The notes beneath the pieces are model-generated. The model saw only the letters and a program-made list of their open reading frames with translations, ran no database searches and was not told the DNA's origin. Both the position numbers and the translations under genes were made by a program. DNA of 64,000 nucleotides from Prostheceraeus crozeri (Eukaryota; Platyhelminthes; Polycladida; Euryleptidae): contig CAJQUW010003414.1 of the NCBI GenBank assembly GCA_907163375.1, positions 124,001-188,000 of the forward strand, read 5' to 3'. Shown one piece after another: positions 4,394 through 51,070 of the stretch (position 1 is its first letter; each line of letters starts with the position of its first letter).

Positions 4394-4500
4394 CTGCTTT
4401 TGAAGCCTTATTTGGAGTTGAAAATTCGACTAAAATTTATCGATATGCAACAGGGTTCCTCAGAACTGAAGATGGATTCTGGGCTGCGATGGACAGCAAG
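4394..4500 (+). CDS. Candidate internal exon of a modular receptor, probable CTLD first part
   Basis: A 107-base open stretch begins after a CAG acceptor and stops at a donor AAG/GTAATG. It encodes about 35 residues, including YRYATGFLRTEDGFWAAMDSK-like sequence with an aromatic GFW. The exon starts in phase 1 and ends in phase 0. That is exactly what the next plus-strand exon at 14085 needs, since that exon opens in phase 0. The fragment is too short to identify alone. I infer from position that it is part of the domain finished by the 14085 exon. Any upstream exon with the signal peptide has not been found. It could also be a chance splice-flanked frame. Confidence 0.4.
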
Positions 4501-5018
4501 GTAATGTGCTAATCGTTCTGATTCAGGTATTATCTATCCGCGTTCATACAATATGCACCATGCATGTATTGGATATGTGATCTAGCCCCATGTTGTTTGT
4601 TATTTTTCTCCACGTTTGTATCTCAGTGAATGACAAACTTCTTCATGAAATAATGACAATTCACAATACTGTCAATCATAGTTAGTAGTGTTTATAGCTA
4701 ACCATCTGTTGTCCATGTTGGAGTGATGCATTTTTCTTTTTGTCCGTGAATCAGAGCAATGTGTAACAGTTTTCTTACAAGTGCGCGGGGATGTGTGTTT
4801 TTCTATTAATTGTGATTCGTTGGCTACTGTACTCCCGCGCATCTGTATGCAATATGCTTGTTACGTATGCATTTGTATTTAAGTAAAGTTCTCACGTCTG
4901 CGCAGTGTCACCGTCACCTTTCTCAGATTGTCTCAGACGAACTCTGCACAAGCGTGAATATATTACAACTGCTTGTTTTACTTCACTGTGAAATTGATGG
5001 CCATGTCATCAAAATCAA
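4501..5018. other. Intronic sequence without recognisable features
   Basis: Between the candidate exon donor and the left pLTR of the second PLE. Nothing recognisable. Confidence 0.4.
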
Positions 5019-5243
5019 CATTGACTTCGAGGTTTGAGAACACTTCTCTCCTACTTGTCATGAACTCATATCTTGCTCTGTTTATAAATGCTTCATCTCT
5101 GCTTTTATTTTGTAACCTTGAGAAAGCCGTAAGGCGAAATATTGGTCAATTTATTCATTAATACAATTTGTATCCGCTGAAATCAATTACTTTTGATTTA
5201 TACCTTATCTCCGGATACGTGGATCTCATCGGGTTTCTTGAAA
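5019..5243 (+). repeat. Left pLTR of the second PLE
   Basis: A 225-bp direct repeat, near-identical to 10918-11142. Both run from CATTGACTTCGAGGTTTGAG to the GGATACGTGGATCT region. The right copy starts inside the last codons of the PLE frame and the left copy ends where the PLE frame begins, the expected head-to-tail PLE arrangement. A hammerhead-like fold lies at 5113-5148. Confidence 0.85.
5113..5148 (+). ncRNA. Hammerhead-like motif in PLE pLTR (U3-A8 core variant)
   Basis: The order is TAACC (stem I), TTGAGAA (in place of CUGANGA), AGCC-GTAA-GGC (stem II), GAAA, a two-base loop, TT, then GGT (stem I). Both deviations from the consensus fall at C3 and G8, which pair with each other in the hammerhead core; here they read U3 and A8. 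The right pLTR repeats the motif at about 11012-11047 with a better stem I (GGTTA). Activity is not proven. Confidence 0.45.
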
Positions 5244-6736
5244 TGTCTGCGGAATTCCGTAAAGCAGAGAAATTGGCAAAATGTCAGAGCAACAGTTTTG
5301 GAGAATACCCTCAATACATATGAGGCGGAGATGTTAACGAAAAGACATAGCAAGCAATGGTTAAACCTCTGTATTAATTTAGAATACAAAAGGAGAGCCA
5401 AATTGCAAACTTACAATTTTCCTCTTTCGGAAAATGAAACACAGAATCTGCTTTATTTAAAAAATTCAATTTGTGCGACCAAAGAAAAGAAACTGATTGT
5501 TCTGCTTAAGAAAAAGGACACAAAGGTATCTAAAGACAATCATCAACCTTTAAATGGTTTTGTGGATTTAACTGATTCTGCCTTAAGAATGGAGTCGAGA
5601 AGTATACTCAATAAAGGACCTTCCTATATTACGTGTCCCAGATACAAAAGAACTCTCCAGGATGGTTATGGAAAGCTGTGCAGAGGTTTAAGTGGCCGCA
5701 ACTAGGAAGAAAAGACTTAATGTACCATCTGAATCCATTTCAGAGCTTAAAGCAGGTATGATTCACATACTCAAATCTCTCAATGTACCTTAATCTACTG
5801 CTACTTCTGATTTAGGAAGGGAAGTCAAAGAGAATGATGATATTCTTATATTACCTACAGATAAGACAAATCGTTTACTCACTATGGAAAAACACCATTA
5901 CAATCAAATATTGGAGAATAAAACGATAAACAGTGGTAATTTCAAATTGATCAAACCAATACAGCCTTCTACCGCACAAGCGAGATTCAATAGAGAATTG
6001 AGCTTGATTGCAAATGGATACAAATCTAAGTTTTCACATGTTTGCTATGGACTAATGGACCAAAGATGTTCTGAACCTCTTCCATGTTCTGCTTACGTCC
6101 TTCCTAAGGATCATAAAAATGGTGAACTAACGGGAAGACCCATTGTTGCTGCACTTGATGGACCTGGTAACAAATTATCTAAATTTTTATCTTCAAAATT
6201 AAACAACGTATTGCGATTTGTACCATGTCATATCAGAGATGGCGATTGTTTCGTTGAGTGGGTCAATTCTATTCCTTCAGAGTCTCACATTGGTGGATTT
6301 GCGTCACTTGATGTGACCAACCTATATGGTAACATTTCGCTACATGGAGATACAGATTTATTCACTGTATTGAGACAATTTCTTCACCTTTATGGTGGAT
6401 CTGATGATTTCTTGAAAAACGTGAATGTGGAGGATATTGTCGATCTGACGAAACTAGCTTTATTCTCAAATACAACTATTCATGATGATCAGAAATATAG
6501 CCAAATTAATGGATTGACTATGCGGAATTCTATGGCCCCACAGTTGGCAGTTATATATATATATATATATATGATTTTTATGGAAGAAAAAAAACTGAGA
6601 GCTTACGATGGTGCGGTTATTTGGAAACGATACATTGACGATTGTTTTATCATATGGCTACCCCGTATTTCTGTTGATGACATCCTTCCTTTTGTTAATG
6701 GTTTTCTGAGCATATCAGATTCACTATGGAGTTGTC
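5193..6736 (+). pseudogene. Penelope-like element, N-terminal region and RT domain (part 1)
   Basis: 5193-5705 encodes a Lys-rich N-terminal region (NLCINLEYKRRAKLQTYNFP, ILNKGPSYITCP). After a frame change around 5650-5880 comes DDILILPTDKTNRLLTMEKH, the PLE counterpart of the first RT box. It continues with GRPIVAALDGPGNKLSKF, FASLDVTNLYGNI (usual LYTNIP), NGLTMRNSMAPQLAVIY and the catalytic RYIDDCFIIW. A (TA)n expansion at about 6550-6572 adds Tyr/Ile codons just after the SMAPQLAV box, still in frame. The reading frame slips near 6710 and the gene is then cut by a TIR element at 6737. It reverse-transcribes PLE RNA in intact relatives; this copy is broken. Confidence 0.88.
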
Positions 6737-6738
6737 TA

Positions 6739-9700
6739 CCCAGTCAGCCCGTACACGTGTAATAGGCCTGCACGTGTATTTTTGATGTAAATGAAAATAA
6801 GCCACTTTTGCACGTGTAATGCACGTGTTATTATTTATGACTTGTTGCAAAGGTTAATTTTATAATTTCAATGTTATACTAATGCCAGGGTGCATGAATC
6901 TCAAGTCACAGTCATTTATATTCTACTGCAGCTATACACTAAGTGGTAACAACAAGACATCCATATAAACGATTGATACCATATGAAAACAACGTCAAAA
7001 TTGCACTATCACAACGATTTTGACTATTGATTCTCTAAATTCACAGAATACATATACAAATAAATGACCATGTGCTATTCATTTTTGGCGAAATTCCTTC
7101 TTGGAAGTAATTAAATTTATTCACTTTTTTCTCCGAACAAAGCTTCGTTGATGTGTGAATTAACGTTCTTTAAAAGCATGCAAAAATATTTGGTAGGCCA
7201 TAAGATAATCCAGAAAATTAAATTGTATTTGTATTTTGTTCAAATGCTAGAGTCCGAGTAACTTATCATTTCGGCATTAATCGCTGTGAAGATTTAGGCT
7301 GTAAAAATCCATTTAAAAATCCTCTGCAATGCTATAATCGAGTTTTCATGTCTTAAAATTGAAAGTAAGGTGCTTTGTATTCACATTCACTCATGTTTAT
7401 TCGCATTATCTGAGACATTGTCAATCATCTGAGCTGCACGATAGCTGTTTTCCAATGGATAGAAAATTTGATTCAAAAGCATGCATTGACTTCTATGGTT
7501 AGCATGTGTTATTGAATTTTGAATATGGTTCTCTTCGATTTCTTTGTCATCTTCCTAATTAGCTGCTGTCGATTTCTTTGATCATGCATGGAAGTCTATG
7601 ATCTATATTGGTTTAGAAACTTAGCTACACATGCAGTAACATAGCATAATGTTGTGAATTCAAATTTGAACAGCTCCGCTTCATTGCGATATGTCTGGCT
7701 CAATGGAAATTGATCTAGTGGAATTATTGAAGTCTGCAGGATGAAGTCAATTTGATGATCAATTGAAACATTTGGAAAATGGAACTTGATCACATTTTGT
7801 GACAAATTGCTATCATATTGCTTTGTCTGTGATGAAGTCCAGTGAGCTTTACATTTTGTTTCTTAGAATATGCATGCATGATGTACAGTATTTTTTCTCC
7901 AGACATATGCGCTTTAAAATATTAATTCTTTGATATTTTTTGCAGTAACAATCGAGTTTCACTTGCATGTATATCTTTCTGGAAAGCTGTTAATCGCATT
8001 CCATGTCATATGTCTCACGATTAACATGGCAAGGTCAGAACTTATAAATGAATGTGATCTTTTAGGATTGAATGCTTTTTGTAGTGTAGGCCCTACACGA
8101 GATTCATTATTTGATATTACAACTGATTTGAATAAGTTTACAATTCACAAAATGTATCAGAATATTTTCCTATTACAAGTTTGTATTTTATAAGTTTGCA
8201 AGTTATATTTTGTAGATAGGATGGTTTGTAAATTCAAAATCACCAGGGACGGAGCTAATACGTTGATTGATTTTCTGAAGCTTATTGTCAACGTCACATC
8301 AAGTGAAGAGATATTTTCACCAATGCAGTAAATGGCTACTTCTCGTTTCTGTTTTATAACTATTTGTTTAATCTATTATATTTCAAAAACACCAAGTTCA
8401 TGTTGTAAATCGCTGCTTTGCTTTCAAAATCGTTTGATATTCTTTTTGAGTTCTTTGCAGAACCCAATCCCACTGTTCAGTGTTCAAACAACTTATATAT
8501 ATATGCAACTGAATGCGATGAAGCCGGAGGTTTTCAGTTAGCCTCCGCTTCCCCTGCCTAGGAGATCATGCGTTTTTTAACATGTTCATATCAGCCGGAA
8601 ACTCAGTCGCTTCAGCTGATAGCTAGAAGGCAGACCTATCTCCACGAATTCGCAGAAGCTGTCATTGATTTTCCGGCTAGAATTTTAACAGAGACATTGG
8701 TTTCAGATGTTGCTGCTGAGAACGTTAAGTTATCTAAATAAATTTCATTTCGAACCTTTCCTGAAACAGATCAACAAAAACGATTTTCAAGACCATAGGA
8801 AGAAGACCTTTGACTAAGAATCAACCTGTCCATAAAATCAAAACATACCTTAATTGTCCTTAATTCGTTATCATTATTTAATTCCTGACTTTTGCTGCAG
8901 ATAATTCATTCACACGTAGCTGTCCTATCGTATCACTCTCTGATTTAGATGGGAGATGGTTTATAATAGACGTGTAAAAATTTATCTAATTATGAGATTT
9001 CTAAAATATGAATTGATCTAGAGATGGATTACAAAACATCAAATTAATGTAGAAATGATTCACACGATGTAACTTGGATAATTGCACTAATGAAACGCTA
9101 AGAGCAAAGGAAGTTTGGATCCATAATTAAGGAATTATATCTAGCACTGATGACGGATTATATCAGTTAAGTGACAAGCTTTTTCATTCTTATTGTGTAT
9201 TACAAATTATTGGTTTGATTGATTTCTTATTTTGTCATTCTACATTTCTGCAGTTTCGTTGTGTAAGTGATGCATCAGATTTCAAAAAGTGAGCATCTGA
9301 TGAATCCTATCGTTCCTTTAAATTGAATTAATGTAATTAGCTAATTAATAAACTATTGTATTGAATTAAACTAATTACCGATTACATGCAGAGCTTTTGT
9401 CACAATCTTTAATGATAAAAATCTCTCACGTAAATGATAGATATTTATAACTTTATTTTCAATTTATTTCCAGTATTGCTTGCCACCTGGATGAATTTTC
9501 ATAACATTTTTTCAACTCCTGATTGAAAATTTGGATTTATGAACTTTGGAATAAAGCTACTTATGAAGTTGTCAGACGTCATTGAAGTGGATGAGATGGT
9601 TTTGGCTAGATATGGAATATTTGTGAATTCCTGTGATTTACAGTTTCTAATGTGATAGTTTTTTACTCCAAAAAATGTGCTTCTACTTATTCGGTGTCTT

Positions 9701-10084
9701 ATAAACTTTCATGTTGTGGGCTATAGATTTCACATTTGACCGACCATTTAAAGCGATTTATGTGTGTTATGCATGCTCAGAGCAAATATAAGTTAAGAAG
9801 CGCTCGGAATAGCTAGGAGGTAATATGATGCAGATATGAATTCGGAACAAATTTCTAAGCAATCTAGCTAGAGGTTGGGTATGTTCGAAGCAATAAAAGA
9901 ATGAAACGCCAAAATAAACTAGCATTGAATTTTAAGGCGTGAAAGGAGTGTAATTTTGGTGTATTTGTACACGTGTAATACACGTGTATTATCTGAACAC
10001 AAAACACGCGTATTACACGTGTCCGATACACGTGTATTACACGGGTCCATTACACGTGTAATACAAGTGTGCTGGTTGACTGGG
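6739..10084. mobile_element. TIR element 'CACGTG', copy 1 (3.35 kb), inserted in a PLE
   Basis: Ends are inverted: left CCCAGTCAGCCCGTACACG, right GTGCTGGTTGACTGGG. The element is flanked by TA on both sides. Taking it out with one TA rejoins the PLE frame exactly (FTMELS then NNGLLPFLDTG), so both boundaries are certain. A second copy at 24943-27664 shares the interior almost base for base. Subterminal palindromic TACACGTGTA words recur at both ends; the right end here carries several more than copy 2. I find no transposase; longest frames (7596-7805 minus, 7930-8193 plus) show no motif, so it is probably non-autonomous. The superfamily is undetermined. Confidence 0.9.
9970..10070. repeat. 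Subterminal array of CACGTG palindromes
   Basis: About 100 bp at the right end of copy 1 holds several repeats of the palindrome TACACGTGTA with single-base variants (CACGCG, ACACGGGT). Copy 2 keeps just one in the same place. The repetitive peptide CNTRV seen on the minus strand is a by-product of this array. Such subterminal repeats commonly bind a transposase; that role here is inference. Confidence 0.75.
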
Positions 10085-10086
10085 TA

Positions 10087-11142: not shown

Positions 11143-11497
11143 CTCAACAGCATGTACAAAAATCTACACACAGTGTTGTACATAATAGCAGAGAGGAAAC
11201 GTAGTGTGCAAAACAAAGAAATTCATTGCTAAGACGGATACGATGATCCTTTCCACACCAGGGAACGGCTGATTCGGTCACCATGTCGGTTTTTGTCTTG
11301 GACATCTAGCCATCAGTTTTATTTCCTTTGATTATCAAACGAAGCATCTTTGCCAAACTTCCTTCAGCGACATTCTAATACAATGAGAAGCTGAGCCTGA
11401 GTTAGCTTGCATCGAGACGGCATGACAATATCACTGAATCAATCCAGGCAATTCTCTCTGCGTCTCTGAAGGGCTTAAGCCACTCTGTACTAGAAAC
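11143..11497. other. Spacer before the satellite
   Basis: No gene, domain or repeat recognised. Confidence 0.45.
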
Positions 11498-12946
11498 GAG
11501 TTAACTCGTTATTAGTGAAGTTGGAGCACTCCAGCAGCCCGAGTTAACTCGCTTTTCGTGAAGTTGGATCACTCCAGCAGCCTGAGTTAACTCGTTATTC
11601 GTGAAGTTGGAGCACTCCAGCAGTCCGAGTTAACTCGTTTTTCGTGAAATTGGAGCACTCCAGCAGCCCGAGTTAACTCGTTATTCGTGAAGTTGGAACA
11701 CTCCAGCAGCCCGAGTTAACTTGCTATTCGTGAAGTTGGAACACTCCAGCAGCCCGAGTTAACTCGTTATTCGTGAAGTTGGAGCACTCCAGCAGCCCGA
11801 GTTAACTCGTTATTCGTGAAGTTGGAACACTCCAGCAGCCCGAGTTAACTTGCTATTCGTGAAGTTGGAACACCCCAGCAGCTCGAGTTAACTCGTTATT
11901 CGTGAAATTGGAACACTCCAGCAACCCGAGTTAACTCGTTTTTCGTGAAATTGGAACACTCCAGCAGCCCGAGTTAACTCGTTATTCGTGAAGTTGGAAC
12001 ACTCCAGCAGCCCGAGTTAACTCGTTATTCGTGAAGTTGGAACACTCCAGCAGCCCGAGTTAACTCGTTATTCGTGAAATTGGAGCACTCTAGCAGCCCG
12101 AGTTAACTCGTTATTCGTGAAGTTGGAACACTTCAGCAGCCCGAGTTAACTCGTTATTCGTGAAGTTGGAGCACTCCAGCAGCCCGAGTTAACTCGTTAT
12201 TCGTGAAGTTGGAGCACTCCAGCAGCCCGAGTTAACTCGTTATTCGTGAAGTTGGAACACTCCAGCAGCCCGAGTTAACTCGTTATTCATGAAATTGGAA
12301 CACTCCAGCAGCCCGAGTTAACTCGTTATTCGTGAAATTGGAACACTCCAGCAGCCCGAGTTAACTCGTTATTCGTGAAGTTGGAACACTCCAGCAGCCC
12401 GAGTTAACTCGTTATTCGTGAAATTGGAACACTCCAGCAGCCCGAGTTAACTCGTTATTCGTGAAATTGGAACACTCCAGCAGCCCGAGTTAACTCGTTA
12501 TTCGTGAAGTTGGATCACTCCAGCAGCCCGAGTTAACTCGTTATTCGTGAAATTGGAGCACTCCAGCAGCCCGAGTTAACTCGTTTTTCGTGAAATTGGA
12601 ACACTCCAGCAGCCCGAGTTAACTCGTTATTCGTGAAGTTGGAACACTCCAGCAGCCCGAGTTAACTCGTTATTCGTGAAATTGGAACACTCCAGCAGCC
12701 CGAGTTAACTCGTTATTCGTGAAGTTGGAACACTCCAGCAGCCCGAGTTAGCTCGTTATTCGTGAAGTTGGAACACTCCAGCAGCCCGAGTTAACTCGTT
12801 ATTCGTGAAATTGGAACACTCCAGCAGCCCGAGTTAACTCGTTATTCGTGAAGTTGGAACACTCCAGCAGCCCGAGTTAACTCGGGATTTGTGAAGTTGG
12901 AACACTCCAGCAGCCTGAGTTAACTCGGGATTCGTGAACATTGGAA
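11498..12946. repeat. 43-bp satellite, 34 tandem units
   Basis: The unit reads GAGTTAACTCG, TTATTCGTGAAGTTGGAAC, ACTCCAGCAGCCC. The 10-bp palindrome GAGTTAACTC (with a GTTAAC core) recurs every 43 bases from 11498 to 12917, exactly 33 periods, with no net length change. Units differ by point changes (AAGTT/AAATT, GGAGC/GGAAC, TTATT/TTTTT). The first unit extends the palindrome to 16 bp (AACGAGTTAACTCGTT). An isolated GAGTTAACTC lies 3' of the array near 13095. Confidence 0.97.
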
Positions 12947-14084: not shown

Positions 14085-14313
14085 ATTTATGCACTGTCAG
14101 ACTTGGTCGATGGTCGCAATGTTGGATACTTTGGAAGGGAGGATCTCCTAAGTTTACGAGAAGAGAATTTTGTATTCTTTAATGAACTTGGAAATTGTGT
14201 TTTCCTACATTATGAACGTCCTCCGTGGGATAATAATTATAGCAATGGAATAGTTTTCAAAAATCTTGGGATGCTCGTCAGCTCATGTCATTTTAGAAAC
14301 TTTATTTGTCAAG
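14085..14313 (+). CDS. Candidate exon: C-type-lectin-like domain C-terminal half
   Basis: The exon opens after TTCTATTTTAG in phase 0 and closes at CAAG/GTAAGA in phase 1. It encodes about 76 residues ending GNCVFLHYERPPWDNNYS and CHFRNFICQ. The pattern Gly-Asn-Cys-Val-x-Leu, a second Cys some 30 residues on and the terminal F-I-C-Q is how a C-type-lectin-like domain normally ends, and the exon stops directly after it, as shuffled domain exons do. The usual W-x-x-x-C is replaced by LVSSC, so the fit is partial. Extracellular ligand binding would be expected. The next exon at 24445 has the matching phase. Confidence 0.55.
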
Positions 14314-22790: not shown

Positions 22791-23718
22791 ATCGCGGGAT
22801 CAGTTTTTCATTTCAAGTTGAACTTGTTACTGTAAAAAAGTTTTTTAATATTCAAACAATCATTTTCTAAAAATTTCGTAATTGTATCTAAAACAATCGA
22901 CAGTTTTTTCATGAAAATTGCAGTAGAACATATTTAAAACATGTCCTGTCTGATAATGTTGTCGATTTTGCATTTCCGTGGTTCTTGTAACTATGAATAC
23001 CGTATAATAATTCATGCAATCATTATTTTTGAATTTCATATTTATGAGTAGTATGTAGAGAACATACGTGGCAATAGTCACCATAACGAGGTAAAAAGTA
23101 TCTTAGTATCAATTAACATATTTACTGGACCACATATCCTCAACGCAAACTATGGAAGTTGCAAATCAACTTAAAACTCAAAAGTCTTATCAATAGAGGT
23201 GAAATCCAAAAATGTCAGAAAAATGTGGTCGTAAATTTTCACCATGTGGCTCCTTTGGATAAAATATTGGGTCTACAAAAACATCCACGACTCAGAGACA
23301 GCCAACACAAAGTTTGGAAAAGTCACTGTAGGAGTACTTCAAACAATTATTCGTTCCGGCGTGAGACAAAAAAAGCCGAGGGGGTCATAGTGCCTTCCCC
23401 CCCTTTAGACAAATAGCGTTTAGCCAGGGATATCTAGTCCCGGGATAGGAATGTTGTGTCAACTTTCCTTTTCTGCTGACGAGAGTAGGGTTACACTGTC
23501 AGATCGCCATTTACTCTGTGAAGGAAATGGTAAACAGTGTCACAGAGGTCGGCTTGCAATAGAGTTATGTATGCTTGTGTGAGCTGTGTGCATGAAGGTG
23601 GCTGCCTATTGTTTATTAAATGAGGCGGTTTTTGCAATATCGATTAATTGCAGGCTGCAATGCCGATGTGTCGCATTAGGATTTCCACGCTGTGTTGTGT
23701 TGATGTCTGCTGCTCGAT
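22791..23718. other. No recognisable gene
   Basis: Open frame 23159-23416 is basic and domain-free. A short inverted pair (TTTACTCTGTG / CACAGAG) near 23510-23550 is the sole structure noted. Confidence 0.35.
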
Positions 23719-24153
23719 ATGGGTTACAGCTGTTGTGTGGCAAATTGTAGAAGCAACTACTACAAGCCATTGAAAGGACAGACACCGGAAGAGAAGATCC
23801 CCGTGTTTAGATTTCCAGCCGATGAACACCAAAGGCAGTTATGGTTAAAAGCAATAAAACGTCAGGATACTGTCGACGGCAAACTTGTGGAATTCTTACC
23901 ATTGGATAGACGTAGAGCATGTGCTATACATTCTCGACCTGATGACTTCCTCACCGAATCTTCCGACAGCAGAAATCGCCTCGAATTCCGTGCTTCTAGG
24001 AGATTGAAAACAATTCGCTTAAAACCATCCACAGTTCCCTCTGTCTTCCCATCTGCGCCTTCTTACATGACTTCAAATGTTATTACTAATACTAAACGGA
24101 ATACTTCATTGGCGTCCTCGTCTTCGTGGACTGACAATGATAATGATAAGTAA
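23719..24153 (+). CDS. THAP zinc-finger protein
   Basis: THAP domains bind DNA through a C2CH zinc site. The frame starts MGYSCCVANCRSNYY, giving the first two zinc cysteines directly after the Met, as in THAP proteins. It continues VFRFPADEHQRQLWLKAIKR (the conserved Phe-Pro and Trp), then CAIHSRPDDF (Cys and His ligands) and LKPSTVPSVFP, matching the AVPTIF box that ends the domain. A low-complexity Ser/Asp tail leads to a stop. A second frame at 24152-24325 (YDAFLLMDRCFNFEELVEKI, then HLTPLSNRFYFCL) looks like its continuation after a frameshift. It could be a transposon-encoded or a host gene; the downstream shift favours a decayed transposon protein. Confidence 0.8.
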   Translation: MGYSCCVANCRSNYYKPLKGQTPEEKIPVFRFPADEHQRQLWLKAIKRQDTVDGKLVEFLPLDRRRACAIHSRPDDFLTESSDSRNRLEFRASRRLKTIRLKPSTVPSVFPSAPSYMTSNVITNTKRNTSLASSSSWTDNDNDK

Positions 24154-24444
24154 TGGAATCATATGATGCTTTCCTATTAATGGACAGATGTTTCAATTTC
24201 GAGGAACTTGTGGAAAAAATCAAACATTTGACTCCTCTATCTAATCGTTTCTATTTTTGCTTGTCGATCATCGCGAATGATGTACTTCCAGATGTTCCAG
24301 TCGTTACTAGTTATAATTTCTGCTAAATGACTTGACTGACTATTCACTTGCATTACAGCATTTAATGTTTGAAGTTCAACAAATTAACCTTATAGTCTTT
24401 GAGGTCACCCTGCTCATCTCAAATTTGCTGCTTTCTTCTGTCAG

Positions 24445-24639
24445 GTTGTCAAAGTGATGCAATGGGATATTCCTACAAAGGTGCGGTAAATACATCGGCA
24501 TCGGGAAAGAAGTGTCTACCTTGGAATAAAGTCAACAGTCTGCTTTTTGAAAACGTTTTTCGTGCTCACGGATTTCAGGGTCGCTATTATTCGATTTTTG
24601 CATTAATTTCATGGAATAGTAGTCAACCCGAGTCAAGCG
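24445..24639 (+). CDS. Candidate exon: kringle domain N-terminal half
   Basis: Bounded by acceptor TTCTTCTGTCAG and donor AGCG/GTAAGT; phase 1 at both ends. It encodes GCQSDAMGYSYKGAVNTSAS then GKKCLPWNKV, the unmistakable kringle opening (Cys1, G-x-x-Y-x-G, T-x-S-G, Cys2-x-x-Trp). The remaining 40 residues up to SSQPESS are longer than the usual kringle spacer. Kringles are extracellular disulfide modules for protein or lipid binding, and their genes normally split them over two exons near this point. The partner half is at 36225-36431 in the same phase. Confidence 0.75.
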
Positions 24640-24942
24640 GTAAGTACAAATTGGTTAAGCACATAGAAGGCGGATTGCTAGATATATATATATGTTTTCT
24701 TGAGCGGACATCAAATCTCCAACATATATTTCAGCGGAAGCAATATTAATTCAAAGTATTCATCTATTAGTGTGTCATTTTATGTTGTATGGTTTGCGAA
24801 TCTATTTGTGGACTTATCAATAGAAAAGCTTTCAATACTAATATTTTTCTTAGAGTGACCGCAGACGGCAACAATATGAAACAACATCTCTCACTGACGT
24901 TGTATGATCGCATCAATGAATTGCAGCTTAAATTATGCGCTG

Positions 24943-27664
24943 CCCAGTCAACCCGTACACGTGTAATACACGTGTATTTTTGATGTAAATGAAAATACAC
25001 CACTTTTACACGTGTAATGCACGTGTTATTATTTATGACTTGTTGCAAAGGTTAATTTTATAATTTCAATGTTATACTAATGCCAGGGTGCATGAATCTC
25101 AAGTCACAGTCATTTATATTCTACTGCAGCTATACACTAAGTGGTAACAACAAGACATCCATATAAACGATTGATACCATATGAAAACGACGTCAAAATT
25201 GCACTATCACAACGATTTTGACTATTGATTCTCTAAATTCACAGAATACACATGCAAATAAATGACAATGTGCTATTCATTTTAGGCGAAATTCCTTCTT
25301 GGAAGCAATTAAATTTATTCACTTTTTCATCAACTGATCCGAACAAAGCTTCGTTGATGTGTTAATTAACGTTCTTTAAAAGCATGCAAAAATATTTGGT
25401 AGGCCATGAGATAATCCAGAAATTTAAATTATATTTGTATTTTGTTCAAATGCTAGAGTCCGATTAATTCATCATTTCGGCATTAATCGCTGTGAAGATT
25501 TAGGCTGTAAAAATCCATTTAAAAATCCTCTGCAATGCTATAATCGAGTTTTCATGTCTCAAAATTGATAGTAGGGTGCTTTGTATTCACATTCACTCAT
25601 GTTTATTCGCATTATCTGAGACATTGTCAATCATCTGAGCTGCACGATAGCTGTTTTCCAATGGGTAGAAAATTTGATTCAAAAGCATACATTGACTTCT
25701 ATGGTTAGCATGTGCTATTGAATTTTGAATATGGTTCTCTTCGATTTCTTTGTCATCTTCCTAATTAGCTGCTGTCGATTTCTTTGATCATGCATGGAAG
25801 TCTATGATCTATATTGGTTTGGAAACTTAGCTACACATGCAGCAACATAGCATAATGTTGTGAATTCAAATTTGAACACCGCTTCATTGCGATATGTCTG
25901 GCTCATCAATGAACATTGATCAAGTGGAATTATTGAAGTCTGCAGGATGAAGTCAATTTGATGATCAATTGAAATATTTGGAAAATGGAACTTGATCACA
26001 TTTTGTGACGAATTGCTATCATATTGCTTTATCTGTGATGAAGTCCGGTGAGCTTTACATTTTGTTTCTTAGAATATGCATGCATGATGTAGAGTATTTT
26101 TTTCTCCAGACATATGCGCTTTAAAATATTAATTCTTTGATATTTTCTGAAGTAACAATCGAGTTTCACTTGCATGTATATCTTTCTGGAAAGCTGTTAA
26201 TCGCATTCCATGTCATATGTCTCACGATTAACATGGCAAGGTCAGAATGGCAATGGCAATGAATGTGATCTTTTAGGATTGAATGCTTTTTGTAGTGTAG
26301 GCCCTACACGAGATTAATTATTTGATATTACAACTGATTTGAATAAGTTTACAATTCACAAAATGTATCAGAATATTTTTCCTATTACAAGTTTATATTT
26401 TATAAGTTTGCAAGTTATATTTTGTAGATAGGATGGTTTGTAAATTCAAAATCACCAGGGACGGAGCTAATACGTTGACTGATTTTTTGAAGCTGATTAT
26501 CAACGTCACATCAAGTGAAGAAATATTTTCACCAATGCAGTAAATGGCTACTTCTCATTTCTGTTTTATAACTATTTGTTTAATCTATTATATTTCAAAA
26601 ACACCAAGTTCATGTTGTAAATCGCTGCTTTGCTTTCAAAATCGCTTATTCAGCTCGTTGCATCAAGTCAAGGATAAAAGAACATCTCTCACAGAATAAT
26701 AGTGCTGTTTTTCAACATCTACAGACTCATCCCAATTGTTCACAGCCTATTTCATGGACGATACTTCATCGTGGATTGAATACTACTCAAAAGAGACTCA
26801 CGTTAGAAGCTATGTACATTCGGCAACATGCAGGCTCCCTAATGAACGGATGTTAAGGTGTAAATATAGACACTCATGTAACGGGTTCATCCAAGTTAAT
26901 GTTTCTCTTCTAGCTGTACTCAAAGTTTGTTTAAATAGGCCCACCTTTTACCACTCTCTTCTGCTTTATTTATTGTAAGTAACCTTAACAAAGCCGCAAG
27001 GCGAAATATTGGTTATCGTAATAAATCAATTTAGTATCCGCAGAAGGTTATTTTTCATCACGCTTCCACTCCGGATACGAGGATCACCTGCATATTATTT
27101 GGAATAAATGACAAATATTTATAACTTTATTTTCAATTTATTTCCAGGATTGCTTGCCACCTGGATGAATTTTCATAACATTTCCTCAACCCCTGATTGG
27201 AAATTTGAATTTATGAACTTTGGAATAAAGCTACTTATGAAGTTGTCAGACGTCATTGAAGTGGATGAGATGGTTTTGGCTAGATATGGAATATTTGTGA
27301 ATTCCTGTGATTTACAGTTTCTAATGTGAAAGTCTTTTACTCCAAAAAATGTGCTTCTACTTATTCGGTGTCTTATAAACTTTCCTGTTGTGGGCTATAG
27401 ATTTCACATTTGACCGACCATTTAAAGCGATTTATGTGTGTTATGCATGCTCAGAGCAAATATAAGTTAAGAAGCGCTCGGAATAGCTAGGAGGTAATAT
27501 AATGCAGATATGAATTCGGAACAAATTTCTAAGCAATCTAGCTAGAGGTTGGGTATGTTCGAAGCAATAAAAGAATGAAACGCCAAAATAAACTAGCATT
27601 GAATTTTAAGGCGTGAAAGGAGTGTAATTTTGGTGTATTTGTACACGTGTACTGGTTGACTGGG
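24943..27664. mobile_element. TIR element 'CACGTG', copy 2 (2.72 kb)
   Basis: Second copy of the 6739-10084 element: left end CCCAGTCAACCCGTACACG, right end CACGTGTACTGGTTGACTGG, flanked by TG on each side. The first 1.7 kb and last 0.57 kb match copy 1 closely. Between about 26644 and 27098 it carries a Penelope fragment in place of a 1-kb segment of copy 1 (8433-9430). The right end has a single CACGTG word rather than the array. The open frame at 27108-27329 follows a TTTATTTCCAG acceptor-like site and is interrupted in copy 1. It lies in the intron after the kringle exon. Confidence 0.9.
26644..27098 (+). pseudogene. Penelope fragment (GIY-YIG tail and 3' end) nested in copy 2
   Basis: Encodes SRIKEHLSQNNSAVFQHLQT, ISWTILHRGLNTTQKRLTLE and AMYIRQHAGSLMNGC, a close paralogue of the C-terminus of the PLE at 10087-10936. 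A related 3' untranslated region with a hammerhead-like motif at about 26979-27015 follows (AACC, TTAACAA, AGCC-GCAA-GGC, GAAA, TATT, GGTT), then GGATACGAGGATC. 5'-truncated. Confidence 0.85.
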
Positions 27665-32317: not shown

Positions 32318-32759
32318 TTCTAGCGCTATAGTAGAATAACACTGCCCGCCTGCATAGATTGATCTGTTGATTATCTGACCCAAGATTGCTATGGCTCGTA
32401 ATTGCACATTGTGAATGTAACCGTAATTTCAACTTGTTCTGTTATCGAGATACGCTAAGATAGCGTTTCTTTATAACATAGCGGATAATCTCCTTGTACA
32501 ACAGCGAACACAATAGATTCTGTTGCCAGTCAAGACTTTCACACCTAGTTGCGTTGGAATAAGGGAATAGACAGAATGAATGCCCATACAAATTCATAGC
32601 GTTGTATTGTTACTCTTTCATAAGTGTCTTCTTTTGATAAAGCAGTTGCTGATTGTATTTGATATGAAATCTATTCTTTAATGATTGACTTGTTAACAAT
32701 TCTCATCACTAATATAAAAATAGGATTTCTGAATTTTACCTTAAGCACATCTGATCACA

Positions 32760-33957
32760 ATGGCAGACCACAGCTTTGACGCTAGTCGATTTTCCATTGC
32801 GTCGTCTCAGGACATTGATCGCGTTGTTTCATGTTCACGGTCAAAGAACACCGTTAGAAATAGTTCCTGGTGCACAAAGTTATATGAAGATTGGGCCACT
32901 TGGAGAAACCAACAATCTTCCACAACACAAGAAAATGATTACTTGGTTCCCCAACTAACAGATTTGTGGACGGCTCCAAAGGCTGACATTTCAAGAGCCT
33001 TGAAACATTTTATATTCGAGATCCGACGGCAGGATGGAACCGAGTATCCTCCCAATACTATTTACAATATTGTTTGCGGATTGGCCCGATTTATCCGAGA
33101 AGAAAGACCCAACTGCAATATAATGGATAAGGAGGATTTCAATTTTGTGCAATTTGTCCGTGCTTTAGATGCCTGCATGAGAAATCTCACTTCTCGGGGC
33201 ATCGGATCCCATCACAGGAGAGCTGATCCGATATCAGAGGATAGTGAGGCGAAACTATGGGATACCAATGCATTTTCCTTACATGATGGAAATGGACTAT
33301 TGCGGGCCGTTTACTTCTACAACTGTAAAGTTTTCGGGCTCAGAGCGTGCGACGAGCATCGCCAGATGCAACTGGAGCAATTCACGTTTTCAGAAGACGA
33401 CCATGGGAAGTTTGTTGAGTACACGGGTCGCGGCAACAGTCTTTTCCGGTGGAATCCGCGATCGCAAGATACAAAACAAGTGTGTTCGACAATACGATAG
33501 CGATAACAATCGATCGGTATATAAGATATTGAAACTTTACGTCAGCCGGCTTCGAAGCATGGGTGTTTTTACGGGAGCATTTTACCGTCGACCACTACGA
33601 AACATTATCCCGGACCAGCCCAGATTCGCCACTTCTCCCGTTGGAGTCAATTCCATCAGAAAATTGTTGCCGGAGGCCGCATCCATAGCCGATATCAAAG
33701 GATACATCACGGCACATTCTGGCAAAGTAACATGTGCGACAAGGCTATTCCGAGAAAATGTAGACGAGCAGTTAATAGAATCAAGAACTGGGCATCGAAG
33801 CAATGCTGTTGAAGCATACAAAAGAAAAGGACCGGAGCAAGAAGTGATGCTTAGCAGCCTTCTAGACCCGCCTAAACCAAAGACTAAATTATGTAATTGC
33901 TTTCATACATCCATTGATCAAATTGATTTTGATTTCAGTATAAATGTGTCTTTCTAA
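32760..33957 (+). pseudogene. Tyrosine recombinase (Crypton / DUF3504 type), one frameshift
   Basis: ATG at 32760 opens a 246-codon frame. Its N-terminal half has a helical core-binding domain (WTAPKADISRALKHFIFEIR, YPPNTIYNIVCGLARFIRE). The catalytic domain starts LWDTNAFSLHDGNGLLRAVY then FYNCKVFGLRACDEHRQMQL, where the FGLR-EHR block is diagnostic. Near 33440 the frame shifts to FSGGIRDRKIQNKCVRQYDS. It continues FYRRPLRNIIPDQPRF and then ITAHSGKVTCATRLFRE, VDEQLIESRTGHRSNAV and EAYKR: the C-terminal H-x-x-K/R, GH and Tyr catalytic block. One indel inactivates an otherwise complete protein of about 390 residues. Related domains occur in ZMYM and QRICH1 host proteins. Confidence 0.85.
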
Positions 33958-34299: not shown

Positions 34300-34689
34300 C
34301 CAAAACATCTGCAAACTGTTGACCAGCCAAAATTGCTAGTTATAGATATCTATGGTTGAAAAACGATTTCTATGCCATTCATTGAGGAACAATAAAGTAC
34401 AAATTCCCTAATAGTTCAAGCAATTACATAGAAATCGGCTAAGTGTGGTGATAAATCGCTTACATTACTCTGTCCAAAAAAACAGTGTAACAATTCGGTT
34501 GCAACACTCGTTTGTCGATGTCGGGCTTCGCCCTCGATCTTCACTCGTGATGCAACCTTCAATTATATTTCGAAGTTGAGCGTCTAATTGGCAGATTTCT
34601 ATACTCCACATTTTCGCTACTGTTCCAGCAAAATTATAGGGATTGTTTTAAAATTTCGTTGAGTTAATTCAGGTTCTGTATTACAGTAA

Positions 34690-35700
34690 TCATAATTGGG
34701 AGTTCAATGCACGTGAGGAGATGTCAAGTGGCAAAAATTCTTAAATTCATCCTTTCAACCGCAAATAGTTCACTGCTGATACTCGCGTTACATTTCACTC
34801 TATTGTGTAGGACGTTCAACACCGCAAGCTAAGGACGTCATCATATTCATTTACTGTGAAGAATGTATTCTTTTTTTCATAACTTGCAAAATTAGTTCAT
34901 TCTGATGTCATATTGAAGATCGGGAGATGATGTCGATTACAATGAGCCCCATTTCATATATTAAACTATTTGACAGTCGTTCATTAGCAAGACAGTTATC
35001 ATTTCGATGTTTTATCTTCTCTGAATGAAAAGAGTCAACAGGCGCGAATGAAGGAAATTGCTTTGATCTCCGACATTCACATTTGTATTGTTAACACTGA
35101 ACGCGCGCGCTTCAACATACACAGAATTAGACAGGTCGTCTCTTCTTCTGTTTGACTAGAAGGGGAGCATTGGAACATGTAACGTTAATGAAATGGCACA
35201 ATCTGCTGACATAATACCATAGCAATCGAACAATGAGCAGCCAGTTCAACATTAAACAAGCCAAAATGTGCAAAGTTTCAGTGACTGTTATCAACCAGAT
35301 CACACAGCAAAGAGACACAGTCGATGTCAAGTTCTACAGAGAAGTTTGTGAACGTTTTTCATGCGCCTGCTATCTTTTTTTAAAATGATCGGAGGGCCCA
35401 ACATTATCGAGAAAACTTTTGTACAATGATCTGAAATCTTCGAATCTGAAGGAGTCGTGGCGATCGGAGCATTTTGAAGGAATTCACAGCAATCCGCAAA
35501 CGACGCACGACTATTTTTCCTATCTCTGTAAGGTATTAAAAATTTCTTTTTGCCCACTTATTAAGTTCCTGCATGTGCCATCTGTTTGAATCAGTTTGCA
35601 CTTCTAGCAAAGTGACACGATTAAACAATCTGTTTCTGTGTCAACATATTTTCGCTCGGAATGTGCGTCGAATTGCCAGATTTCTATTACTCGATTGCCG
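34690..35700 (+). repeat. R2 repeat, longest copy
   Basis: The left part (34860-35126) is directly related to 31570-31985, and the right part (35127-35700) is inversely related to 27865-28560. No transposase; boundaries not defined. Confidence 0.55.
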
Positions 35701-36224
35701 AGCGTGAGAGCAGGTGGTAAATGCAGCTGCGCGCCGAATCGGCACGTCAATGAAACTTGATCTAGCATTAACTGGCGCCGGAGTTGACGCTAGGCTTTCT
35801 CTATTAATACGGAACTCAAGTTGCTACTGCCCCTAGTAGCAATTTGCCTAGCGCTACCCCTAGGAAATGCTATAGCAAATGCTAGCCCTATTAATACGTA
35901 AGTTGCTGCCTAGGTTAGTGTTTAGTGTTATCTCTATTGACACGGCCCATGGCCCCTTCGAGCTAGTTAGTGCCAATGACATGGGGGCACCCATGTATGG
36001 CAGTATGTCCCTAAGACGTCAGAGTCAGCTCATCGCTAGATAATGTGGAGGATAAGAAGAACCAGAAAAAAGGTGGGGTGATGCTTGTAGGATATTCTAA
36101 AAGAGCTTCAGCGCCTATTTGCTGCCGTGGTAAACAGTAACACATGAGTTCTTATTGTTCTTATTGTTGTCCTCTTTAATGCAGTAACTAATTATCGCTC
36201 TTCTCCTTCTCCTTTATGGTGCAG
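35701..36224. other. No gene; short internal repeats
   Basis: CTATTAATACG recurs at about 35802 and 35888 around CCTAGCGCTACCCCTAGG-like words, probably a small MITE fragment. The end is a pyrimidine-rich CTTCTCCTTCTCCTTTATGG and GCAG acceptor. Confidence 0.35.
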
Positions 36225-36431
36225 GTGTCAAGGGTCACATGGCTGATTTGAATCCACATTTCAATTTTCATGGAAATATGATTCCTCACAATACAGGAGA
36301 ATTCGGAAATCAGTGTCGCAATGACGGCAATTGGATTATCAAAGCTTCGGATCCCGTTTGTGTGGTGTTTGATGAAAAGAATGAAGACTTAACCCTCGAC
36401 ATCTGCATTGTTCCCTACTGCAGTAAGCAGC
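36225..36431 (+). CDS. Candidate exon: kringle domain C-terminal half
   Basis: Starts after ...TTTATGGTGCAG in phase 1 and ends at CAGC/GTAAGT in phase 1 (a second donor at TGCA/GTAAGC keeps the same phase). It encodes NPHFNFHGNMIPHNTGEFGN, QCRNDGNWIIKASDPVCVVF and DLTLDICIVPYCSK. This matches the second half of a kringle: N-x-CRN-x-D-G (Cys3), P-x-C (Cys4), Cys5 and the closing V-P-x-C (Cys6). Together with 24445-24639 all six kringle cysteines are present in order. The lysine-binding DXD motif is not evident. The aromatic W-C of classical kringles is V-C here. Confidence 0.75.
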
Positions 36432-37759
36432 GTAAGTATAATGTATTTTCCTATTTCATCGTTGAATACCGGGTATGGTCTTCGGGAGGCATTATCGGAG
36501 GATCAGTCCGTAGGTTGGTCATCAACAAATTGAATAACACGATGAAATCGACACGAAGTCAACCGTTAATTGCATCGATAGCGAAGTGGCTACCTTCTTG
36601 GGCAGCTGACATTGAAATCGTTGGTTTGAGTCCAATCAAATACAGTTTTCAGATATCTATTTGGTCGCTAAAAATCGAGTATGATGAATAACACTGAAGT
36701 TTTCGATACCAAAGCAATGATGGCTATTTTGAGTAACAATAGAATGGAATGAAATAAACGACAGATTTAATTGTCAAGGATGTGCGTCTGGTAGAATAGC
36801 AATATGACCTCTAGAATAGGAAGTCAAGTTTCATGCAATACACAATAGTGGCACATAAATCGCATGCATTTGAATCAGTCACATGAGTAAATCTAAGCTT
36901 CATGCCCCAACTAAGTTCCCTGGATGTGCCGCTACCTTGAGTCAATTTCCATTCTAGTCAACTTCAGGTAGATAGCTTACTATTGTGGACCCAGGATAAA
37001 CCTCTGCCTACCAACTGAGCTACGAGCCGCTTGCATGCGACTGTGTCAATTGGCAGGATCAAACCCTCACAATCAGACATCAGTTGTCATAGGTATTATA
37101 ATCAATGAATAAATAACTCGTCACAATTGTGACCGCAACATTGAGGTGGTTAGCGTGGATGGATTGTCCACCAAAGCATCTTAAACCTTGTAGTAAATGC
37201 AAACACGAAAGAGAGAACACCTGTGATGATCCGGGAATTGAAGAAATACAAATTTATGCAATTACTTTAATGGAAAATCCTAGAGGAAACTAGTTTATAA
37301 GTCTAGAACGCATAGATATAAGTACTATCAAAAACATTGTGATCCATGCATGGTACGTAATATATATGGATGGACAAGCTACCAACATGAAAATATCAGG
37401 AAAAATGAAACTTAAAACTGATGTTTTTTTATTTTTGCAATCCGAAGACGAAAATACAAGTCTAATACCAACGACGAGATGCTAGCCTTATATTATTAAT
37501 GAGGATGTACAAAACTGAAGAAAGTTGAATTTTCAGATTACTATGCATGGAGATGCGAGCTCCTAGGTATGCAAGCAGTGCAAGTAGTCAGGGAGAAACC
37601 ATGTGACTTCAAAAAGAAGGACATCGGCCATCAATCTCCAACTCGGACCACATGGTGTGGACAAATCGACCAAATCGAATGAACTATTAGGCAGTACTCT
37701 CCATACCTGAAGAAGCGTAGCTAAATTATAAAGTAATCCCATCATTACCAAAGGCAAGA
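36432..37759. other. Intronic; contains a tRNA-like segment
   Basis: Apart from the tRNA-like patch near 37000, no gene or element was recognised. Confidence 0.35.
36975..37080 (-). repeat. tRNA-like (SINE-type) segment
   Basis: On the minus strand GGCTCGTAGCTCAGTTGGTAG matches an RNA polymerase III A box (TAGCTCAGTTGG) with its tRNA context. GGGTTTGATCC, a B-box-like word, lies before rather than after it, and no cloverleaf closes. Likely a rearranged tRNA-derived SINE and not a functional tRNA gene. Confidence 0.4.
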
Positions 37760-38920: not shown

Positions 38921-39047
38921 CTCATTGTTAGATTGGATTTCTCTTCATAAACCAACGACATCTAGTGATACGTCCAATCTGAAATGCAGCTATTGATCTT
39001 TCCTTCTATCTAAAGAGATATCTTTGAATCTATGAATCAAATAAGCG

Positions 39048-44453: not shown

Positions 44454-44562
44454 TGGTGGCGCCGAAACAACCGCCAATCTCATCGATCACATCATCAGAG
44501 AATCTTAGACGTCTTCACCAACAGTAATTTTTCAGGTAAGACAGCTGGGTTACTTATCGTCG
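44283..44562 (+). repeat. Direct duplication, left copy (about 277 bp)
   Basis: Nearly identical to 49389-49665, from CACTGGTCAGCAAAT through CGAAACAACCGCCA to TTTTTCAGGTAAGACAGCTG. The two copies directly flank the transposon at 44567-49384. Confidence 0.85.
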
Positions 44563-44566
44563 GCTA

Positions 44567-47500: not shown

Positions 47501-49384
47501 CTTATTGATTTCATCCGGGCGATCTTTTGAATTAACGATTATGACATGTCTTGCAATGAAATTGCGCTGCTCTTGAAGATCCTATCCATAAAAACTGTTG
47601 AAAATACATGATCGCAACTCATCAGGAAATTGGTGGCAATAAAAACGTTTCTAATTCTCTGTGTGATTGCATCTTGGCAATAAATTGCGTTCCAATCGTT
47701 TTCTGCCTTGCCGATCTTGATATGATTTACCGCTATCTTTCAACTTCTTATTCATTATGCGCTTATTCACTTACCGGCTTGGAGTAGGTAAAGAATTTGA
47801 ATTCAATTGTTCGACAGGAACACCGTCAATTTCGAAGGATGTCTCTATGATATCGTTATTACGAGTTTCAGTAGCATTTATGACTTGCGGGTCTCTTATG
47901 CCATCAAGTAAATTGTCTGCGACATTGAGTGGATCGTTTGTGGGATCGAGTGGATTGTTTGTGGGATCGAGTGAATCGTTTGCGACATCGAGTGGATCGT
48001 TTGTGGCACTGAGTGGGTCGTTTGTGGCATCAAGTGGATCGTTTGTGCCATTGAGTAGATCATCGAGTACTATGTGGGCATTAGAATCAATTGTAAACTC
48101 ATGCAAATCAGAAATCGCCACTGAATAACCCGTCGGAGGAATGTCAATCGGAACATCCGCAAATAAATTTGAAGTTCCAACTGGCTTGTCGAGTGGAAAA
48201 ACCCGTATCAAGTCAAAAGAAACATCACATTGATTCACACCGATCAAAGAGGTTGGAGATTATTGGAGTGTATGAATGGTCACCGTTGTAGTGAAGCACG
48301 TCATTTTCTTGTCCGTCGTTTTCCACCATGATGGATTTGATGGAGGAGAGAACTTTCTCTGCAGACAATACTGAACATTTTCGACCTGGAAAAATAGATG
48401 AAATAATCAATTTTGGTCACTTCTTCTGATTCAGTTTAGAAAATCGACCAGGGGGAAGGGTAGGGCCGAGCCCAGTGATTCACTTAACTGCAGGTTTGAA
48501 GTAATTAATTGACCAGACAAATGAATACATTTTAATTTAGTATACTTTCTTTTCTTATAATGTTTAGGCCTTAATTTCAATTGTGTATTTCTAGAATATA
48601 TCATAGTGCTTTACAACTGATAGCTTATATCTAGTTCATTTAGGGATTGGCGATGTAGGGGATTAGGGCTTGATTAGGAATTCATAAGTTGTACTCACGT
48701 TTATTTTCTTCTATGTTCTCCAAAGCCGCAAGCACCATCGATATTCCTCTATTCATTTCGAAGATTTAGATCGGATAATATTAAATGTCTCAGCAGAATT
48801 CAGGATTTAATTGATGAAGGGACGGATGCGCTGGTTTCGTGATTGATAATTTCAAAAACACAATTATTATGTTGTTAATTTGTGACAATGTATTTTGAAG
48901 TTTCAATCAAATTTAGAAGTCTAATCAAATCAAATTGATACAAAAAGAGATTGTAAACAGAAACTGTTTACAATCTCCTTTGTATCAATCTGATAAACTG
49001 TTTGTCATTGAACAAACAACTCATTGAAAACAGATGCCATATATATTTGCATGGCAAACTCACGTATTTCAATTACGTTAGTTTGGAATGACAGGATAGG
49101 ATCTTCGACGCGCTAATCAATAAAATTCACGTATTCACGTAAACTCACGTATTCAAAATAAATATGATAGCTATTCAAGGCAAACTCATGCATCTCAGTA
49201 CGTCAGTTTGGAATATCATTTATTAAAGGAAAGCATCGTATGTGAGTTGGTCCCCCTTCTTTAAATTTACTATAAAAACCTATTTTGCTCTAATTTTGGT
49301 GTGATACTGTAAATCACGACTTAAGCTATTAAAAAACCAAAAATCTCAAAATCGCCAATTTTTGAGATACGTGAGTTTGGAATG
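44567..49384 (-). mobile_element. 4.8-kb TIR transposon carrying an uncharacterised transposase-like gene
   Basis: Ends CATTCCAAACTCACGTATCT and, inverted, AGATACGTGAGTTTGGAATG; both flanked by TA (inside GCTA/TAGC). The TIR motif recurs subterminally at 49066-49112 and 49180-49215 in head-to-head form. The gene at 46048-48756 is read toward the left end. The remaining interior (44600-46040, 48760-49340) shows no other coding region. Confidence 0.75.
46048..48756 (-). CDS. Spliced transposase-like protein, uncharacterised metazoan family
   Basis: Exon 1 is 48756-48699 (ATG, MNRGISMVLAALENIEENK, donor AAC/GTGAGT). Exon 2 starts at 48385 in matching phase 1 (KCSVLSAEKVLSSIKSIM). A linker follows with seven NDPL-type heptads (47918-48063) and a donor near 47771. 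The core at 47757-46607 holds IMNKKLKDSG, FIARHVIIVN, FFKPKKDLCDLCATANP, AAVVFDLMQVVYLHI and LYADGCAGQNKN, then FLASSKTIECVTLTYFVAGH and EGDAMHSTIEGGIKRAG (46610-46419). The tail KYDDLLSLCRG lies at 46257-46048. The spaced acidic motifs FDLMQ, ADGCAGQN and H-S-T-I-E suggest a DDE-type catalytic site. One in-frame stop near 47595 and an uncertain join at 48245 suggest decay. Family widespread in animals, function undescribed as far as I know. Confidence 0.7.
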
Positions 49385-49388
49385 TAGC

Positions 49389-49665
49389 ACTGGTCAGCAA
49401 ATGCAATGACGGATACAAGTCTATCATAGCTCATTTTAAAGCTGAGAATGCAAGCTCTTGAATGATATGTGGCACGTTGAGATGCGACACGATTGGAAGG
49501 CATGAAAATCGATTGAATTCCAACGGAATTGAGGTGATCCGTTTTCATGATCAGCTCTGTGGTGGCGACGAAACAACCGCCAGTCTCATCGATCACATCA
49601 TCAGAGAATCTTAGACATCTTCACCAACAGTAATTTTTCAGGTAAGACAGCTGGGCTACTTATGA
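49389..49665 (+). repeat. Direct duplication, right copy
   Basis: See 44283-44562. The copy also contains a foldback half-arm. After it, sequence diverges (CTTATGATGC against CTTATCGTCGG). Confidence 0.85.
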
Positions 49666-50093
49666 TGCTTTTACACTACAATCTGAAGCTGGGATCAACT
49701 CGAGAGTTTGTGCAGCGGATTGTGTGTACAACGGTGCAATAATGGATCCAACAACTGCAGTAAAATCAAAAATTTGAGCTCCTGCCTCCTACGTTTGCGT
49801 AGACATCTAAAGGAAGTCCCCGAACTTGTGTTGTGTATCAGCCTGACCTTCCTACACAGCAAGAAAGCAGCAATTATTTTCTATGAATAGCCGTACATCA
49901 TCTCATAAATTGATTGGAGACGCAAATAAATAGGCCTATGCGTAGCGCATAATTGGAATGAACCATTTATGAGGCACCAACGTGCAAATTTGAACAATTT
50001 CTCGCCTAATTATGTAAACATCCTCTTGCACATTCAACAATAGCAAGTATATCGACCATAAGTTCAGAAAATTGACAGTTATATTTCTTTCAG
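49666..50093. other. Pre-exon intron; a short Cys-containing frame
   Basis: 49657-49775 is open in one frame and reads YDAFTLQSEAGINSRVCAAD then CVYNGAIMDPTTAV, resembling extracellular protein, with possible donor GCA/GTAAAA. Its phase does not match the flanking receptor exons, so it is not included in the model. The end is ATATTTCTTTCAG. Confidence 0.3.
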
Positions 50094-51070
50094 GTGGACT
50101 ATTCATTGACAGGCGAATGGTTTCTATGAAGACACCAATTTCAATGTTTTCTTGTGCTGGAGACAATGATCATTATGCTATGATATTCAACGCGGGACCA
50201 AACAGAAATTTATATTACGATACAGAAAAAACTACTGGTTGTCATGGTGAAATGAAAGATTCTGTAATCCTCAATTTTGTGAATAATGGCATTGTTGTAA
50301 TAATTAACTTGTATTGTATAGTAGTCATTTCATATAGAAGATTATACAAGTCTCGAAATTTTGCGTCCACCTTGTACTTGAGTTTTGCATTTGTTGCTTA
50401 TGTTTGTGGATATAACTATCTTATATTTTATCGTTATTTCATCAAGCTTTCTCGAATATCTTGTATTCTTGGTTATCAAGTATTTTCTATCGGAGCTTAT
50501 GTGTACGTCGGTGCGCTGCTCACCTTAAGTATAAACTGTGTTGGAGCAGTCTTCAAGCCGCTCACCTATCGTTTTATAATCACTATGAAACGAGCTTTGT
50601 ATTCCAATATTGTTTACGTATTTTCTTTGGTAATTGTGCAATTGATCTATCCGTTAATTGCTTACGGAAATGTTATGGATGGAGTTTTACCTTACCACTG
50701 CGCCTTGCGAGATGTACTTGATGATCAGTACAATATCGCTATGGCGGCATTTGCCTTGATTCTACTTTTCCTAATAGGGATTGCAAATGTTATTACTACA
50801 ATTGGTGTTGTCAAAGTGATATTATTCAGTAATAGCCTTAGAGCAAAAGAAAAATCCATAATGAAGGGAACTATCAAATTGTGCATCAAGCAAGGATTGA
50901 TAGTCATCGCTAACATTCTCTGCAACATGCCGCTGGTGTTGGATTCCTTAAATATCATTTATTGGAGAACGGAAAATTGTATTTTATTGGCCATGAGTGT
51001 TGGATTTTGGAATGTGCTGCTCCTGTCTTTATGCGACAAAAGAATCTTTATGGCATTGTCCTGTCGTTGA
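50094..51070 (+). CDS. Rhodopsin-like 7TM receptor, terminal exon
   Basis: After acceptor ATATTTCTTTCAG the frame (phase 1) encodes 324 residues to TGA at 51068-51070. Residues 1-55 are an extracellular segment; TM1 about 56-79 (N63/N64 at the usual Gly-Asn position), TM2 89-112, TM3 124-152, TM4 168-190, TM5 212-244, TM6 260-288, TM7 294-312. Cys123 at the top of TM3 and Cys202 in loop 2 can form the conserved disulfide. SINCVGAVFKPLTY sits where class A receptors have DRY-x-x-V-x-x-P-L-x-Y. The NPxxY site is replaced by GFWNVLLLSLCD. The C-tail is very short. No intron and no frame break within the bundle. Probably a divergent chemosensory-like or orphan receptor; ligand unknown. Confidence 0.82.

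Follow-up and report, generated by a model that had tools for sequence, protein, structure and literature searches.

A locus of the polyclad flatworm Prostheceraeus crozeri very probably holds one spliced gene that joins a lectin-like stretch, a kringle and a seven-pass receptor, and that belongs to a large gene family. The analysis covered a stretch of 64,000 nucleotides (the window), corresponding to positions 124001-188000 of a 208-kb contig. Many copies share the same exon order and have open frames; the splice sites are kept in the copies examined, the seven-transmembrane (7TM) exon is under purifying selection and the 7TM domain is in class A register, all of this as read from DNA and predicted protein. 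The encoded product would be a cell-surface receptor with an N-terminal lectin-like region, followed by one kringle bearing a variable insert. A divergent class A-like 7TM domain, predicted to be coded by a single last exon, would come after the kringle.

Gene Model and Splice Sites

All five exons (Table 1) are preceded by AG; the first four are followed by GT, and the last ends at a stop. Joined together, they form one open frame of 570 residues that terminates at 51070. Both the GT-AG borders and the phase-compatible chaining proposed in an earlier note on this DNA are thus borne out. The model contains neither a start codon nor a signal peptide; splice-site and pattern scans of the 124 kb upstream recognised neither of these, nor an N-terminal half of the lectin.

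Table 1. Positions of the exons and related features within the window.
Feature	Position	Strand	Phase	Description
Exon 1	4394..4500	+	1-0	Lectin-like region, ending ...RTEDGFWAAMDSK; related exons at family loci
Exon 2	14085..14313	+	0-1	Lectin-like tail (NCV...C-x4-FICQ)
Exon 3	24445..24639	+	1-1	First half of kringle and most of the insert
In-frame kringle insert	24534..24639	+		Fast-changing in one paralogue pair (window and C1604)
Exon 4	36225..36431	+	1-1	Second half of kringle, cysteines 3-6
First 14 codons of exon 4	36227-36268	+		Most variable part of exon 4
Splice acceptor of 7TM exon	50074..50093	+		AG|GTGG, kept in 54%-identical paralogues L037 and L039
Exon 5	50094..51070	+	1 to stop	Whole 7TM domain, 324 residues

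Scored with generic splice-site frequencies, the sites of exons 3 and 4 rank among the top 0.1-4% of the window. When set strictly, the scan accepts nothing on the plus strand except exon 3, exon 4 (which has three donors) and one transposon ORF; the minus strand yields no candidate, and the mean over 20 shuffles is 0.1. With looser settings the plus strand has 15 and 30 candidates, where shuffled sequence averages 0.65 and 1.3. Exon 2 is missing from the lists made at a threshold of 0.9 because its acceptor scores slightly too low; it is present in a separate candidate listing. For exon 4, the donor at 36472 outscores that at 36431 (3.9 vs 1.6); the former would break the phase, and the latter gives phase 1.

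What follows exon 4 bears on an alternative that is improbable, namely that two neighbouring genes are present, one for a secreted protein with lectin and kringle parts and the other for a 7TM receptor coded by a single exon, which have stayed linked through duplication. Exon 5 does contain five in-frame ATGs ahead of TM1; those at 50180 and 50252 have G at -3, but those at 50117, 50126 and 50144 have no purine there. Exon 4 closes with a phase-1 donor. Downstream of it, 14 phase-1 terminal-exon candidates reach at least 60 residues, with one lying within exon 5; the 7TM exon exceeds the others in both length and acceptor score, and those ahead of it encode 61-112 residues and have weaker acceptors.

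Copies with the Same Exon Order

The exon order was sought in the window's own 2.05-Gb genome, where all match counts are lower bounds. At least 109 places are related to the 7TM exon, at least 152 to the kringle exons (150 of these were listed and used in the kringle analyses) and at least 92 to the lectin-like exons. The 7TM places include pieces of single genes (two on C11767 and two on C6708). Nine of them are 90-100% identical over the whole exon, the window's own included, eight are 43-54% identical, and the other 92 mostly fall between 22% and 34%.

At 44 of the 109 7TM places, matches to exon 2, kringle half 1, kringle half 2 and the 7TM exon lie in this order on the same strand, as labelled by us from query coordinates; two strand-flipped controls gave 0 ordered sets. 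Exon 1 is also in order at 16 of the 44, which by eye amount to 41 distinct exon sets (two 7TM places on C7894, for instance, share one set). The proposal of a single chimeric receptor with C-type lectin-like (CTLD), kringle and 7TM parts, and the expectation that its exon order would recur elsewhere, are both supported by this result. A compact copy on C4010 lends further backing, with similarity to all five exons in about 9 kb; the borders of its exons 1 and 2 are in part provisional.

Looser groupings give a similar picture. In the 60 kb upstream, 69 of the 109 7TM places have a kringle match on their own strand (4 when the 7TM strands are flipped), and 50 have both kringle halves in order (flipped: 2). 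Among the matches listed, 61 of 81 kringle half-2 matches have a half-1 match upstream, and none has one only downstream; an exon-2 match precedes 57 of the 69 half-1 matches. The remaining 40 7TM places, which have no upstream kringle match, may reflect missed exons, contig ends or receptors that do not carry the module.

Linked neighbours would also co-duplicate, and kringles do occur in other mosaics of the same genome (by eye, kringle-LDLa-SRCR-trypsin on C9887 and lectin-kringle-LDLa on C1281); both points favour two separate genes. Against this stands the exon order, which persists at the 44 places even when 7TM identity falls to 24-34% and therefore indicates a gene family rather than one duplication. 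The two 54%-identical paralogues L037 and L039 also keep the 7TM acceptor; their protein similarity to the window begins at the exon edge, upstream of all five ATGs, and the DNA before the edge differs. The 7TM exon is therefore spliced to something upstream.

That the locus is merely a duplicated stretch, or belongs to a family of pseudogenes in decay, and makes no functional product is most unlikely. The nine copies at 90-100% identity, the stops within the match at 11 of the 109 7TM places and the setting of the gene in transposon-rich DNA are in line with such a reading, but the other 98 7TM places are free of stops within the match, and exons and splice sites are conserved where intron alignment is patchy. 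The nine closest 7TM copies keep the frame. In 28 pairs formed from eight equal-length copies (not counting L031, with its one extra codon, or the diverged L037-L039), dN/dS of the 7TM exon is below 1 in 27, at 0.21-0.68; the exception is the near-identical pair L032/L033, at 1.43. By the measure of these ratios, the 7TM exon shows purifying selection.

The Kringle and Its Insert

On its own, exon 3 matches the Pfam Kringle profile over the profile's first half (E 1.6e-4), and exon 4 gives no match to it. When the two are joined and 44 spacer residues omitted, the profile is matched from 4 to 79 of 79 with 34.7 bits (cut-off 34.3); with the spacer included, the score is 24.7 bits and only the first half is covered. 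The full six-cysteine kringle claimed in the earlier note therefore holds as regards its six cysteines and full-length profile match, with the qualification that 44 extra residues must be taken out for that match. The kringle is genuine and contains a 44-residue spacer. Its best sequence matches in the PDB are the kringles of HGF (E 6.1e-7), a growth factor, and ROR1 (E 8.3e-5), a receptor kinase; neither of these kringles is known to be joined to a 7TM domain.

In the C1604 paralogue, the spacer is open, and the acceptor and donor of exon 3 and the splice sites of exon 4 are kept. An insert is also present in the kringle of the distant C4010 copy. Between the window and C1604, the insert differs by 9.0 nonsynonymous and 1.0 synonymous changes, and the kringle core by 5.0 per 199.8 nonsynonymous sites. 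Taking the insert together with the first 14 codons of exon 4, 24.2 of 116.5 nonsynonymous sites differ, significantly more than in the core (Fisher p 1.3e-7, with the border between core and variable part chosen after viewing the alignment). Within the variable part of this one pair, the excess over synonymous differences (2.8 of 30.5 sites) is not significant (p 0.20).

The Lectin-Like Exons

The layout of exons 1 and 2, with FW, NCV and C-x4-FICQ, resembles what we take to be the end of a CTLD. The C4010 counterpart of exon 2 shares 43% identity with it and has NCV and C-x4-FLCQ; exon 1 has a short similarity there, YTTAFIRTRDGFWSDVD (E 2.3e-5, within the 9.5 kb searched). As to the lectin-like tail proposed earlier, this layout stands and profile or sequence support is lacking: queried as a partial domain, exons 1 and 2 have no lectin match in the PDB (E up to 10) or in Pfam (E up to 10 or 1), and a hand-written CTLD-tail pattern does not match exon 2. 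A C-type lectin-like domain is plausible and somewhat favoured. The competing view that exons 1 and 2 are a module of their own with another fold, in a receptor with a kringle otherwise as described, is only a little less probable and is compatible with the main gene model; it draws on the missing PDB and Pfam matches, on the failure of the tail pattern and on a tandem repeat of the contig that also looked CTLD-like by eye, and it has to face the fact that the FW, NCV and C-x4-FICQ layout is largely kept in C4010.

This tandem repeat (L023) lies at about 202.5-205 kb of the contig, and its open frames mimic the N-half of a lectin. The apparent N-half at about 202-205 kb was accordingly rejected as a repeat whose other copies have stops.

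The 7TM Domain

Nine 19-residue hydrophobic windows of the last exon pass 1.0; grouping 115-153 and 214-251 as one helix each leaves seven segments. C123 as the TM3 cysteine, NCV at +24 to +26 in the DRY position and P at +32 in ICL2 agree with class A spacing. The DRY motif itself is absent, with NCV in the window and DCL in C4010, and neither the window 7TM nor the C4010 copy matches Pfam 7tm_1.

A profile of the 7TM domain, made of eight rows of which six are at least 90% identical, matches nine PDB sequences at E up to 1. These belong to two receptors, both class A: seven to M3 (best 3.3e-4) and two to OR52c (best 0.32). The Foldseek list from a structure model too poor to rely on is headed by class A receptors, but at E 0.2 or worse. 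The C4010 7TM weakly resembles the nematode Srsx chemoreceptors (PF10320; E 0.0027, 17.6 bits, below the curated cut-off of 24.1). Srsx chemoreceptors form large families; we know of none with a kringle ectodomain. No relatives were found in the protein database, nor in scans of viral and prokaryote contigs. The class A-type bundle of the earlier note is thus upheld by its seven segments, spacing and profile similarity to M3 and OR52c, but not by DRY or 7tm_1; judged on these features, the domain is class A-like but degenerate.

Other Modules and Surroundings

No GPS/GAIN match to Pfam was found in the joined exons or in the three plus-strand frames of the last intron, nor in those of 1-4394 and introns 1-3 (excluding 24251-24444 and 34601-36224), which agrees with the absence of a GAIN domain noted before. 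The same scans did detect QRICH1, DUF3504, phage-integrase and THAP matches, read as transposon-borne. LRR and LDLa were likewise not found in the joined exons or the scanned plus-strand stretches (24251-24444 and 34601-36224 again excluded), a search that does not include the 5' end of the gene. Kinship of the receptor with LGRs was considered and provisionally set aside.

An upstream exon with similarity to PAN_1 (contig 63501-63707, L016:9501-9707; E 4.3e-4, slightly under the cut-off) was considered as an additional ectodomain module. The genome has at least 30 places with similar exons, including eight on C9840. The module was dropped because its contigs, except C2837, are absent by eye among those with 7TM or kringle matches, and the PAN-like exon is taken as a separate family.

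Several other elements were observed in the window. Intron 1 contains a 43-bp satellite at 11497-12946 (about 34 copies, 94% matches) and shares a 1.7-kb repeat with intron 3 (6736-8432 and 24940-26644, 95.7% identity). An ORF with a THAP domain lies at 23704-24153 on the plus strand, Crypton-like transposon ORFs with the QRICH1, DUF3504 and phage-integrase matches at 32745-33957, and a TNP-like (P-element-like) transposase piece at 58089-58712 on the minus strand.

Elsewhere in the genome, the C1281 mosaic (L024, G000:C1281:70001-80000, 621-5106) comprises a CTLD-like exon (by eye), a split kringle and LDLa repeats; the ORF listing of about 15 kb past the LDLa exons (the next 10 kb being L026) shows a retroelement and no 7TM. 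On C9887 (L025 and L027; G000:C9887:444001-464000), kringle, LDLa, SRCR and trypsin-like exons stand in a row, by eye, with resemblance to a neurotrypsin-type protease. C13565 carries four kringle matches, all on one strand and no more than 60 kb apart (L001, L003, L004 and C13565:71715-71957).

Relation to Known Receptors

Kringle and lectin modules as GPCR ectodomains have a parallel in amphioxus, whose Adhesion GPCRs carry Kringle, Somatomedin B and Lectin C-type domains (PMC2246102). These receptors belong to the Adhesion family, many with a GPS, whereas the window receptor has a class A-like 7TM and no GPS/GAIN was found in the stretches scanned. In a study of Biomphalaria (PMC12297450), GRL101-like receptors bear C-type lectin, LDLa and LRR domains, and those with a C-type lectin domain at SudRes2 of Biomphalaria sudanica are clustered paralogues. 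In a table in PMC12716839, the extra domains given for Rhodopsin receptors are limited to LRR and LDLa, and Kringle appears under Adhesion; the word 'kringle' does not occur in the main text of PMC2396169, which deals with Ciona GPCRs. A kringle on a class A receptor was not found among the literature matches listed, in a search outside which most subscription papers and bioRxiv fall. The claim that no described receptor class has this order holds, as far as this search reaches, for the kringle on class A, and is tempered by kringle and C-type lectin domains on Adhesion GPCRs and C-type lectin domains on snail LGR-type receptors.

Possible Function and Significance

The ectodomain may capture a protein or glycan ligand via the kringle and lectin-like surface, above all through the variable insert, and the 7TM bundle would then pass the signal to G proteins without GAIN cleavage. 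The number of copies, the recent duplicates and the deep divergence seen in genomic comparison suggest recognition of changing outside cues. There is about an even chance that the role is chemosensation; immune or cell recognition is less likely. Tentatively, and with some doubt, the family could be a set of dozens of class A-like receptors particular to this lineage, in which a kringle with a hypervariable in-frame insert forms the ligand-reading surface: a system for chemosensation or self/non-self recognition that relies on a coagulation-type domain and does without GAIN cleavage.

If the one-gene reading is true, a kringle, and perhaps a lectin, was spliced to a class A-like 7TM domain, and shuffling of phase-1 modules would have built a new receptor type that was then expanded. 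The variable insert would offer a direct handle on what these receptors read.
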